From NCBI RefSeq assembly GCF_000003605.2, contig NW_003141145.1, positions 1 through 25,231 on the forward strand: a stretch of 25,231 nt of DNA, read 5' to 3'. Within the stretch, counting starts at the first letter, position 1, and each line of letters begins with the position of its first letter. The position numbers and the translations under genes are program-made. The DNA comes from Saccoglossus kowalevskii. Its lineage: Eukaryota > Hemichordata > Enteropneusta > Harrimaniidae. Positions 4,442 through 19,763 of the stretch are shown in pieces. The notes below the pieces were generated by a model. It ran no database searches, was not told where the DNA came from, and saw only the letters and a program-made list of their open reading frames with translations.

Positions 4442-5881
4442 TTTGTGAATGCAATATAAGAACTTTGGCTTGTTGTAAGTGCAATTCAGGTATTCTGGAT
4501 CATTTTGAGTGCAATTCAAGTATTCTGGATCATTGTGAGTGCAATTCAAGTATTCTGGATCATTGTGAGTGCAATTCAAGTATTCTGGATTATTGTGAGT
4601 GCAAATTAAGTATTCTGGATTGTTGTGAGTGCAATACTGGTATTCTGGATTGCTTTGAATGCAATTCAAGTATTCTGGATTGTTGTGAGAGCAATTCTGG
4701 TATTTTGGATTTTGTCAGTGCAATTCATGTATTCTGGATTGTTATTTGTGCAATTGATGTATTCTGGATTGTTGTGAATGCAATTCAAGTATTCTGGATT
4801 GTTGTGAGTGCAATTCATGTATTCTGGATTGTTGTGAGTGCAATACTGGTATTCTGGATTGTTTTGAATGCAATTCATGTATTCTGGATTGTTGTGAGAG
4901 CAATTCTCGTATTCTGGATTGTTGTGAGTTCAATTCTGGTATTTTGGATTATTGTCAGTGCAATTCATGTATTCTGGATTGTTGTGAGTGAAATTCATGT
5001 ATTCTGGATTGTTGTGAATGCAATTCAAGTATTCTGGATTGTTGTGAGTGGAATTCTGGTATTCTGGATTGTTGTGAATGCAATTCAAGTATTCTGGATT
5101 GTTGTGAGTGCAATTCAAGTATTCTGGATTGTTGTGAGTGCAATACTGGTATTCTGGATTGTTTTGAATGCAATTCATGTATTCTGGATTGTTGTGAATG
5201 CAATTCAAGTATTCTGGATTGTTGTGAGAGCAATTCTCGTATTCTGGATTGTTGTGAGTACAATTCTGGTATTTTAGATTGTTGTGAGTGCAATTCATGT
5301 ATTCTGGATTGTTGTGAGTGCAATTCATGTATTCCGGATTGTTGTGAACGCAATTCAAGTATTCTGGATTGTTGTGAGTACAATTCTGGTATTTTGGATT
5401 GTTGTGAGTGCAATTCATGTATTCTGGATTGTTGTGAGTGCAATTCATGTATTCCGGATTGTTGTGAACGCAATTCAAGTATTCTGGATTGTTGTGAGTG
5501 GAATTCTGGTATTCTGGATTGTTGTGAATGCAATTCAAGTATTCTGGATAGTTGTGAATGCAATTCAAGTATTCTGGATTGTTGTGAGTGCAATTCAAGT
5601 ATTCTGGATTGTTGTGAGTGCAATTCTGGTATTCTGGATTGTTGTGAATGCAATTCAAGTATTCTGGATAGTTGTGAATGCAATTCAAGTATTCTGGATT
5701 GTTGTGAGTGCAATTCAAGTATTCTGGATTGCTGTGAATGCAATTCTGGTATTCTGGATTGTTGTGAGTGCAATTCAAGTATTCTGGATTGTTGTTAATG
5801 TAATTCTGGTATTCTGGGATTGTTGTGAATAGAATTCAGGTATTCTGGATTTTTGTGAATGCAATATAAGAACTTTGGCTT
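4442..5881 (+). repeat. About 1.4-kb segmental duplication of 2251-3660
   Basis: Monomer order and rare variants match 2251-3660 at an offset of about 2191, then about 2221 after a one-monomer difference near 5221 (a GAGAG/CTCG unit present here and missing at the equivalent point near 3030). Small private differences include GTTATTTGTG at 4741, an extra base near 4428 (CACGG), GGG at about 5816 and, in the partner, GGAAATTC near 3280. Both segments start and end at a marker B monomer, so exchange between B copies is a simple explanation. Confidence 0.85.
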
Positions 5882-9570: not shown

Positions 9571-10800
9571 TTGTTGTGAGAGCAATTCACGTATTCTGGA
9601 TTGTTGTGAGTGCAATTCTGGTATTTTGGATTGTTGTGAGTGCAATTCATGTATTCTGGATTGTTGTGAGTGCAATTCATGTATTCTGGATTGTTGTGAA
9701 TGCAATTCAAGTATTCTGGATTGTTGTGAGTGGAATTCATGCATTCTGGATTGTTGTTTGTGCAATTCATGTATTCTGGATTGTTGTGAATGCAATTCAA
9801 GTATTCTCGATTGTTGTGAGTGCAATTCAAGTATTCTGGATTGTTGTGAGTGCAATACTGGTATTCTGGATTGTTTTGAATGCAATTCATGTATTCTGGA
9901 TTGTTGTGAGAGCAATTCTCGTATTCTGGATTGTTGTGAGTTCAATTCTGGTATTTTGGATTGTTGTCAGTGCAATTCATGTATTCTGGATTGTTGTGAG
10001 TGCAATTCATGTATTCTGGATTGTTGTGAATGCAATTCAAGTATTCTGGATTGTTGTGAGTAGAATTCTGGTATTCTGGATTGTTGTGAATGCAATTCAA
10101 GTATTCTGGATTGTTGTTAGTGCAATTCAAGTATTCTGGATTGTTGTGAGTGCAATTCTGGTATACTGGATTGCTGTGAATGCTATTCAAGTATTCTGGA
10201 TTGTTGTGAATGCAATTCAAGTATTCTGGATTGTTGTGAGTGCAATTCAAGTATTCTGGATTGTTGTGAGTGCATCCAAGTATTCTGGATTGTTGTGAGT
10301 GCAATTCAAGTATTCTGGATTATTGTGAGTGCAATTCAAGTATTCTGGATTATTGTGAGTGCAATTTAGGTATAATGGATCGTTGTGAGTGCAATTCTGT
10401 TATTCTGGATTCGTTGGGAGTGCAAATCATGTATTCTGGATTATTGTGAGTGCAATTCTGGTATTGTGGATTGTTGTGAATGCAATTCATGTTTTCTGGA
10501 TTGTTGTGAGTGCAATTCATGTATTCTGGATTGTTGTGAACGCAATTCAAGTATTCTGGATTGTTGTGAGTGGAATTCTGGTATTCTGGATTGTTGTGAA
10601 TGCAATTCAAGTATTCTGGACTGTTGTGAGTGCAATTCAAGTATTCTGGATTGTTGTGAGTGCAATTCTGGTATTCTGGATTGTTGTGAATGCAATTCAA
10701 GTATTCTGGATAGTTGTGAATGCAATTCAAGTATTCTGGATTGTTGTGAGTGCAATTCAAGTATTCTGGATTGTTGTGAGTGCAATTCTGGTATTCTGGA

Positions 10801-14149: not shown

Positions 14150-15779
14150 TATAATGGATCGTTGTGAGTGCAATTCTGTTATTCTGGATTCGTTGGGAGT
14201 GCAAATCATGTATTCTGGATTATTGTGAGTGCAATTCTGGTGTTGTGGATTGTTGTGAATGCAATTCATATTTTCTGGATTGTTGTGAATGCAATTCAAG
14301 TATTCTTGAATGTTGTGAATGCAATTCAAGTATTCTGGATTGTTGTGAGAGCAATTTTGGTATTTTGGATTGTTGTCAGTGCAATTCATGTATTCTGGAT
14401 TGTTGTTAGTGCAATTCATGTATTCTGGATTGTAGTGAATGCAATTCAAGTATTTTGGATTGTTGTGAGTGGAATTCTGGTATTCTGGTTTGTTGTGAAT
14501 GCAATTCAAGTATTCTGGATTGTTGTGAGTGCAATTCAAGTATTCTGGATTGTTGTGAGTGCAATTCTGGTATTCTGGATTGTTGTGAATGCAATTCAAG
14601 TATTCTGGATAGTTGTGAATGCAATTCAAGTATTCTGGATTGTTGTGAGTGCAATTCAAGTATTCTGGATTGTTGTTAATGTAATTCTGGTATTCTGGAT
14701 TGTTGTGAATACAAATCTGGTATTCTGGATTGCTGTGAATACAATTCTTGTGTTCTGGATTGTTGTGAATGCAATTCAAGTATTTTGGTTTGTTGTGAGT
14801 GCAATTCTGGTATTCTGGATTGTTGTGAGTGTGATTCGGATATTCTGGATTTTTGTGAATGCAATTTTGGTATTCTGAATTGTTGTGAGAGCAATTCAAG
14901 TATTCTGGATTGCTGTGAATACAATTCTTGTATTCTGGATTGTTGTGAGTGCAATTCAAGTATTCTGGATAGTTGTGAGTGCAATTCAAGTATTATGGAT
15001 TGTGGTGAGTACAATTCAAGTATTCTTGATTTTTGTGAATGTAATTCAAGTATTCTGGATTGTTGTGAGAGCAATTCTGGTATTTTGGATTGTTGTCAGT
15101 GCAATTCATGTATTCTGGATTGTTGTTAGTGCAATTCATGTATTCTGGATTGTTGTGAATGCAATTCAAGTATTCTGGATTGTTGTGAGTGGAATTCTGG
15201 TATTCTGGATTGTTGTGAATGCAATTCAAGTATTCTGGATTGTTGTGAGTGCAATTCAAGTATTCTGGATTGTTGTGAGTGCAATACTGGTATTCTGGAT
15301 TGTTTTGAATGCAATTCATGTATTCTGGATTGTTGTGAATGCAATTCAAGTATTCTGGATTGTTGTGAGAGCAATTCACGTATTCTGGATTGTTGTGAGT
15401 GCAATTCTGGTATTTTGGATTGTTGTGAGTGCAATTCATGTATTCTGGATTGTTGTGAGTGCAATTCATGTATTCTGGATTGTTGTGAATGCAATTCAAG
15501 TATTCTGGATTGTTGTGAGTGGAATTCAAGTATTCTGGATTGTTGTGAGTGGAATTCTGGTATTCTGGATTGTTGTGAATGCAATTCAAGTATTCTCGAT
15601 TGTTGTGAGTGCAATTCAAGTATTCTGGATTGTTGTGAATACAATTCATGTATTCTGGATTGTTGTGAATGCAATTCTGGTATTCTGGATTGTTGTGAGT
15701 GGAATTCTGGTATTCTGGATTGTTGTGAATGCAATTCAAGTATTCTGGATTGTTGTGAGTGCAATTCTGGTATTATGGA

Positions 15780-15803
15780 TGTTGTGAATGCAATTCAAGT
15801 ATC
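15780..15803. other. Two single-T deletions
   Basis: The sequence reads TTATGGATGTTGTG for TTATGGATTGTTGTG, and 21 bases later AAGTATCTGG for AAGTATTCTGG. The surrounding order matches 6741-6840, where both bases are present. Together they shift the register by two bases. Confidence 0.75.
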
Positions 15804-17158: not shown

Positions 17159-17933
17159 TGTTGTGAGTGGAATTCTGGTATTCTGGATTGTTGTGAATGC
17201 AATTCAAGTATTCTCGATTGTTGTGAGTGCAATTCAAGTATTCTGGATTGTTGTGAGTGCAATTCTGGTATTCTGGATTGTTGTGAATGAAATTCAAGTA
17301 TTCTGGATAGTTGTGAATGCAATTCAAGTATTCTGGATTGTTGTGAGTGCAATTCAAGTATTCTGGATTGCTGTGAATGCAATTCTGGTATTCTGGATTG
17401 TTGTGAGTGAAATTCTGGTATTCTGTATTGTTGTGGGTGCAATTCACGTATTCTGGATTATTGTGAGTGCAACTTACGTATAATGGATCGTTGTGAGTGC
17501 AATTATGTTATTCTCGATTCGTTGTGAGTGCAAATCATGTATTCTGGATTATTGTGAGTGCAATTCTGGTATTCTGGATTGTTGTGAATGCAATTCAAGT
17601 ATTCTGGATTGTTGTGAGTGCAATTCTGGTATTATGGATTGTTGTGAATGCAATTCAAGTATTCTGGATTGTTGTGAGTGCAATTCAAGTATTCTGGATT
17701 GTTGTGAGTGCATCCAAGTATTCTGGATTGTTGTGAGTGCAATTCAAGTATTCTGGATTATTGTTAGTGCAATTTAGGTATAATGGATCGTTGTGAGTGC
17801 AATTCTGTTATTCTGGAATCGTTGTGAGTGCAAATCATGTATTCTGGATTATTATGAGTGCAATTCTGGTATTCTGGATTGTTGTGAATGCAATTCATGT
17901 TTTCTGGATTGTTGTGAATGCAATTCAAGTATC
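16733..17933 (+). repeat. About 1.2-kb segmental duplication of 7735-8935
   Basis: At an offset of 8998 the two segments look almost identical, including marker A' and the following marker A. A single-base difference is visible in A1 (GTTAG at about 17764, GTGAG in the partner). The left part, up to about 17158, also matches 6295-6720, since 7735-8160 is itself a copy of 6295-6720. The match stops at 17930, at the cluster of single-base deletions. Confidence 0.85.
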
Positions 17934-18020
17934 TGGATGTTGTGAGTGCAATCATGTATCTGGATTGTGTGAGTGCAATACTGGTATCTGGATTGTTTGA
18001 ATGCAATTCATGTATCTGGA
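17930..18020. other. Eight single-T deletions on a segment junction
   Basis: Within about 90 bp there are four TATCTGG in place of TATTCTGG, plus GGATGTTG for GGATTGTTG, GCAATCATG for GCAATTCATG, GATTGTGTG for GATTGTTGTG, and GATTGTTTGAATG for GATTGTTTTGAATG. Outside the three clusters such deletions are almost absent. Left of it the array follows the order of 8760-8935 (family II); right of it, that of 4801-5490 (family I). Confidence 0.85.
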
Positions 18021-18689
18021 TTGTTGTGAGAGCAATTCTCGTATTCTGGATTGTTGTGAGTTCAATTCTGGTATTTTGGATTATTGTCAGTGCAATTCAT
18101 GTATTCTGGATTGTTGTGAGTGAAATTCATGTATTCTGGATTGTTGTGAATGCAATTCAAGTATTCTGGATTGTTGTGAGTGGAATTCTGGTATTCTGGA
18201 TTGTTGTGAATGCAATTCAAGTATTCTGGATTGTTGTGAGTGCAATTCAAGTATTCTGGATTGTTGTGAGTGCAATACTGGTATTCTGGATTGTTTTGAA
18301 TGCAATTCATGTATTCTGGATTGTTGTGAATGCAATTCAAGTATTCTGGATTGTTGTGAGAGCAATTCTCGTATTCTGGATTGTTGTGAGTACAATTCTG
18401 GTATTTTAGATTGTTGTGAGTGCAATTCATGTATTCTGGATTGTTGTGAGTGCAATTCATGTATTCCGGATTGTTGTGAACGCAATTCAAGTATTCTGGA
18501 TTGTTGTGAGTACAATTCTGGTATTTTGGATTGTTGTGAGTGCAATTCATGTATTCTGGATTGTTGTGAGTGCAATTCATGTATTCCGGATTGTTGTGAA
18601 CGCAATTCAAGTATTCTGGATTGTTGTGAGTGGAATTCTGGTATTCTGGATTGTTGTGAATGCAATTCAAGTATTCTGGATTGTTGTGA

Positions 18690-19546
18690 ATGCAATTCAA
18701 GTATTCTCGATTGTTGTGAGTGCAATTCAAGTATTCTGGATTGTTGTGAGTGCAATTCTGGTATTCTGGATTGTTGTGAATGAAATTCAAGTATTCTGGA
18801 TAGTTGTGAATGCAATTCAAGTATTCTGGATTGTTGTGAGTGCAATTCAAGTATTCTGGATTGCTGTGAATGCAATTCTGGTATTCTGGATTGTTGTGAG
18901 TGAAATTCTGGTATTCTGTATTGTTGTGGGTGCAATTCACGTATTCTGGATTATTGTGAGTGCAACTTACGTATAATGGATCGTTGTGAGTGCAATTATG
19001 TTATTCTCGATTCGTTGTGAGTGCAAATCATGTATTCTGGATTATTGTGAGTGCAATTCTGGTATTCTGGATTGTTGTGAATGCAATTCAAGTATTCTGG
19101 ATTGTTGTGAGTGCAATTCTGGTATTATGGATTGTTGTGAATGCAATTCAAGTATTCTGGATTGTTGTGAGTGCAATTCAAGTATTCTGGATTGTTGTGA
19201 GTGCATCCAAGTATTCTGGATTGTTGTGAGTGCAATTCAAGTATTCTGGATTATTGTTAGTGCAATTTAGGTATAATGGATCGTTGTGAGTGCAATTCTG
19301 TTATTCTGGAATCGTTGTGAGTGCAAATCATGTATTCTGGATTATTATGAGTGCAATTCTGGTATTCTGGATTGTTGTGAATGCAATTCATGTTTTCTGG
19401 ATTGTTGTGAATGCAATTCAAGTATTCTTGAATGTTGTGAATGCAATTCAATTATTCTGGATTGTTGTGAGAGCAATTCTGGTATTTTGGATTGTTGTCA
19501 GTGCAATTCATGTATTCTGGATTGTTGTTAGTGCAATTCATGTATT
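18690..19546 (+). repeat. Segmental duplication of about 8200-9055 and of 17200-17930
   Basis: The stretch starts at the rare TTCTCGATTG monomer, runs through GAATGAAATTC, TTCTGTATTG, marker A' and marker A, and matches 8200-9055 (offset about 10491) and 17200-17930 (offset about 1493). The GTTAG change in A1 is shared with the 17.7-kb copy and not the 8.7-kb copy, so the nearer pair is the younger duplication. To its left lies the family I insert. Confidence 0.83.
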
Positions 19547-19763
19547 CTGGATTGTTGTGAATGCAATTCAAGTATTCTGGATTTTTGTGAATGCAATATA
19601 AGAACTTTGGCTTGTTGTAAGTGCAATTCAGGTATTCTTGATTTTTGTGAATGTAATTCAAGTATTCTGGATTGTTGTGAATGCAATTCAAGTATTTTGG
19701 ATTGTTGTGAGTGCAATTATGGTATTCTGGATTGTTGTGAGTGCAATTCAAGTATTCTGGATT

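Follow-up and report, generated by a model that had tools for sequence, protein, structure and literature searches.

Within a satellite array, eight T runs spread over ~84 bp (17931-18015) have each lost a single T, and this cluster is very probably a sequencing or assembly error, a patch of ~84 bp of read sequence that was left uncorrected by other reads and in which T was under-called on this strand. Our best reading is that the cluster is not a real biological feature. We favor a technical origin because similar losses are present at some contig ends as well as in the interior of C3000, a contig of an unrelated satellite.

Results

The Array and Its Recurrent Indels

The window analyzed (positions 1-25231; 25,231 nucleotides) is one whole contig, C3210, composed entirely of a 30-bp satellite and taken from a draft assembly of 572,110,611 bases in 4,830 contigs. 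A single tandem array occupies 9-25229, with ~841 copies of the 30-bp unit that are 86% matching. Wrap-around alignment to the monomer reveals 35 deletions and 31 insertions in these 25 kb, and many of them fall at repeating positions of the unit (A at 22, G at 11 and C at 26). Indels with a repeating unit position or a regular spacing look inherited. Single-T losses are unlike these recurring indels, lying in the same alignment at the contig start (25, 34, 60 and 81), at 15779/15801 and at 17931-18014.

Other small contigs of the assembly were also inspected (C3198-C3218, C2997-C3004 and C4499-C4501), and many are arrays of differing tandem units of 17 to ~490 bp. The small contigs thus hold a rich set of satellites from one genome. 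Tandem tRNA genes occur as well. C2500:1-10000 (L015) is a tandem, minus-strand array of 39 tRNA calls by ARAGORN, comprising 28 tRNA-His GTG, 10 tRNA-His ATG and one undetermined; those ATG copies that were examined are nearly identical in sequence, and A34 is unusual in tRNA-His. C3200:1-1500 (L034) carries four tandem tRNA-Pro genes with anticodons AGG, TGG, AGG and TGG.

Table 1. Positions of the T losses, of the blocks around the cluster, and of loss-bearing termini and interior blocks in satellite contigs
Feature	Contig	Position	Strand	Basis
Cluster, eight T runs each one T short	C3210	17931-18015	+	two methods: monomer alignment, T-run census
Four single-T losses (T runs 26, 35, 61, 82) and one mismatch	C3210	1-82	+	alignment to 2457-2590, T-run census
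Two single-T losses in a family II copy that is unbroken apart from them	C3210	15780-15802	+	alignment, T-run census
Interval of order change, family II to family I	C3210	17901-17934	+	alignments to 4701-4930 and 19333-19563; model switch at 17900
Family II block on the left, copied from 18671-19392 with T runs collapsed	C3210	17178-17932	+	exact matches, copying model
Family I block, copied from 4762-5538 with T runs collapsed and no mismatch	C3210	17933-18670	+	exact matches, copying model
Family II block, right copy	C3210	18671-19425	+	exact matches, copying model
Terminus, losses TTTT	C3210	start		
Terminus, losses TTT	C3000	start		
Terminus, losses CCC	C3206	start		
Terminus, losses GG	C3213	end		
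Terminus, losses AA	C2998	start		
Terminus, losses AA	C2999	end		
Interior block with at least two losses	C3210	cluster		
Interior block with at least two losses	C3000	10101		
Interior block with at least two losses	C3206	9601		

Eight T Runs Are Short within 84 bp

The first-pass annotation had described eight one-T losses within ~90 bp, and both methods recover them. The shortened runs lie at 17931/32, 17937/38, 17951/52, 17958/59, 17967/68, 17986/87, 17996/97 (TTTT reduced to TTT) and 18014/15. Alignment of 17932-18022 to its close copy at 4793-4890 gives no mismatches and seven gaps, with the eighth loss appearing in a longer alignment, so the cluster differs from this copy by indels and by no substitution, as an error patch would. 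Ordinary monomers had been said hardly ever to lose a T; the background used here is 2 losses in ~3,160 T runs. With one pseudo-count added to this background, eight short runs among 12 have p ~3e-22, or ~1e-18 after correction for the number of places, and chance is therefore excluded as the origin of the cluster. The losses are also selective: none of the four A runs and none of the five G runs in the cluster is affected (hypergeometric 0.0024), on which ground a plain homopolymer-length error, in which runs of every base type should suffer, was rejected. The left edge of the cluster is sharp, with 17765-17930 an exact match to 19258-19423; the 175 bp preceding the cluster contain 21 T runs.

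One biological explanation is that an old sub-family of monomers with short T runs was copied into this position. In its favor, there are regularly spaced, recurring indels of other kinds in the array that look inherited. A 34-mer that carries four of the losses, however, occurs once in the genome, and GTATCTGGATTGTTGTGA is found in a genome search only at 15799 and 18012, both in C3210; these counts are an argument of limited weight. Furthermore, the stretch equals 4793-4890 in everything except the losses. An inherited variant should be present in more than one copy, and with the 34-mer found once we rejected this explanation as very improbable.

The Cluster Lies at a Family Switch

The cluster had been placed where family II order gives way to family I order, and exact identities on both sides (17765-17932 with 19258-19425, and 18016-18681 with 4884-5549) confirm this and allow the position to be refined. 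Families I and II agree over 17902-17930 and diverge by ~17934, so the switch must lie within 17901-17934; every loss is at the right edge of this interval or beyond it, inside the family I copy. A copying model with T runs collapsed takes 17178-17899 from 18671-19392 and 17900-18670 from 4762-5538, with no mismatch in either, and the region 17178-19425 is arranged II-I-II. The family I block is thus flanked by two exact copies of the family II block, 1493 bp apart.

The same model places 68 switches in the window with a median gap of 353 bp, and a random 84-bp stretch lies within 10 bp of one of them 29% of the time, so the coincidence of cluster and switch is not by itself strong evidence. 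This frequency bears on the proposal of a false join, in which two reads, or one chimeric read, unite families II and I at ~17931; such a join overlaps with an uncorrected error patch, the assembly being wrong in structure as well. The first loss does fall at the right edge of the switch interval, and the II-to-I junction is unique within the window: the 17701-17932 tail has 10 further copies at 90% identity or more, of which eight continue into TCTTGAATG, two into TCTGGATTG in another order and none into family I, and a search of the C3210 window with the loss-free 61-bp junction gave no exact match. Against it, switches are frequent, the flanking blocks are both exact copies joined in register, and neither the 15780/15802 pair nor the internal cluster of C3000 (10131-10203) starts at a model switch. 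We regard a false or chimeric join as rather unlikely. The first-pass suggestion of an unpolished stretch is well supported by similar losses at the C3210 start, at some other termini and in the interior of C3000; its further suggestion, of a false join with a false family I insert, is not demonstrated, given the many switches, the family I block that is free of mismatches after T-run collapse and the other clusters, which do not begin at switches.

Similar Losses Elsewhere in C3210 and in an Unrelated Satellite

The T-run census lists 23 shortenings in C3210: 8 belong to the cluster, the first 82 bp contain 5, the pair at 15780/15802 adds 2, and there are 8 others. Among the five at the contig start, the one at 4 is a substitution by alignment. 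Seven of the eight others lie within 3 bp of model switch points, the exception being 7404, and these seven look like artefacts of the model path. The losses at the contig start and at 15780/15802 were absent from the list of the first-pass annotation. At the start, the restriction to T is weak when taken alone (hypergeometric 0.085). Losses apart, the region around 15780/15802 differs from 17559-17721 by one mismatch in 163 bp, and the model switch closest to the pair, at 15673, is ~105 bp away.

The signature recurs in unrelated sequence of the assembly, as expected of an error patch. In C3000, a 44-bp satellite, T runs are shortened at 6, 14, 23 and 110 and at eight places in 10131-10203 (73 bp). 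The figure of eight is sensitive to the template path, in which there is a switch at 10172. A 100-bp block alignment resolves the internal cluster into losses of one T at four places and a two-base loss, TC. The nearest model switch, at 10172, is inside this cluster and not at its left edge. The terminal loss patches of the two contigs are of similar length, 82 bp in C3210 and ~110 bp in C3000.

A real burst of mutation, a single event of error-prone synthesis at a recombination junction that shortened eight of 12 T runs by one T each, would account for the position of the cluster at a switch, for the lack of mismatches and for losses on one side only. In one form of it, the eight losses would be real and would stem from a single event of strand-biased one-base slippage, as DNA synthesis left a family II template for a family I template. 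However, losses are not confined to junctions: those at the C3210 start and at 15780/15802 lie off model switches, and the termini of other contigs have similar losses of other base types. A junction-specific process was rejected for this reason, and we hold both the burst in general and the slippage event in particular to be highly improbable. Error-prone repair at a recombination junction, offered as an alternative in the first-pass annotation, is unnecessary as an explanation, and the losses at contig ends are hard to reconcile with it.

Single-Base Losses at Contig Termini

For 23 satellite contigs, the first and last 100 bp were aligned to the best other copy in the examined part of the same contig, which gave 44 usable termini out of 46 (the C3213 start and the C3218 end were left out as non-repeat ends). 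An error signature is indeed present at contig termini: at least two single-base losses are found in 6 of 44 termini and in 3 of 1233 interior blocks from nine contigs (Fisher p 9e-8), with the two-loss rule and the 100-bp block both picked after the window had been seen. Each of the six loss-bearing termini has lost a single base type (Table 1). Losses outnumber gains by 24:3 at termini, compared with 31:26 inside, where 10 of the 31 come from the two T-cluster blocks. The remaining 38 of 44 termini, the right end of C3210 among them, have fewer than two losses. Of the three interior blocks, the one in C3206 has lost two G's; because it also has gains, and because its altered string GTGGGCCATTAGA occurs twice within 100 bp, its losses are probably inherited, and it is still counted among the three. 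An earlier terminus count against consensus units was discarded, as it was confounded by non-repeat ends.

Some termini share a short string. Read inward, 13 of 75 contig termini start with at least three bases of AGTTCATCA, where ~2% would be expected, the string having been chosen after the termini had been inspected. All nine bases are present in L035, seven in L005 and L007 and six in L054, and only 4 of 75 termini have at least six; at least one three-base case, L077, matches its own repeat unit. The string may be leftover adaptor or barcode at read ends. A text search of the literature for AGTTCATCA and TGATGAACT named no adaptor among the matches listed.

Discussion

An uncorrected error patch could arise if one-base dropouts occurred as a burst in one read and no second read corrected them. 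C3210 would then rest on one or very few reads at the cluster, and with a single read carrying the layout, its errors would stay. A dropout restricted to one base type would fit the loss of one of the four base signals in a single-molecule read.

Why the patch should lie inside the contig may be explained if a read with a poor beginning enters the contig at ~17931. If the assembly layout used reads from their very first base, a poor read start would come to lie inside a contig with a sharp left edge; a read start at ~17931 may also tie the losses to the family switch, which would then mark the passage from one read to another and no change in the genome. Such read starts should give a sharp edge at each internal cluster, but a switch is seen only at 17931. 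Since the other internal clusters, at 15780/15802 and at 10131-10203 of C3000, do not begin at a model switch, the read start stays a guess, to which we give somewhat less than an even chance.

The probable error patch has two consequences. Bursts of indels in small, all-satellite draft contigs call for caution before a biological reading is adopted. Furthermore, patches of one-base-type loss, at the ends of contigs or inside them, may mark stretches that were left uncorrected by a second read, and they can be seen with no reads at hand.

Three known systems can be compared with these observations. Satellite arrays with higher-order blocks are reshaped by unequal exchange, and the 30-bp array of C3210 resembles them in its exact in-register blocks of up to ~700 bp and its frequent family switches; the T losses differ in being no part of the exchange process.

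According to the portions of the literature consulted, homopolymers account for most HiFi errors, in the form of small indels or incorrect run lengths (PMC9186530, PMC7545148), and HiFi assemblies retain errors in homopolymer and low-complexity regions (PMC12016036). Those portions, retrieved by a search not aimed at such patches, make no mention of patches of one-base-type loss (PMC9186530, PMC7545148, PMC12016036). The likeness to these HiFi errors is one of error type, and consists in small indels in one-base runs that are left in a repeat assembly. The difference is that the cluster in C3210 hits runs of only two T's, eight of them in 84 bp, that all the changes are losses, and that A and G runs are intact.

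Contig ends that rest on one read and are left uncorrected are a known kind of error. The cluster differs from them in lying inside its contig, and the likeness is that loss patches of similar length are present at the termini of this same assembly.
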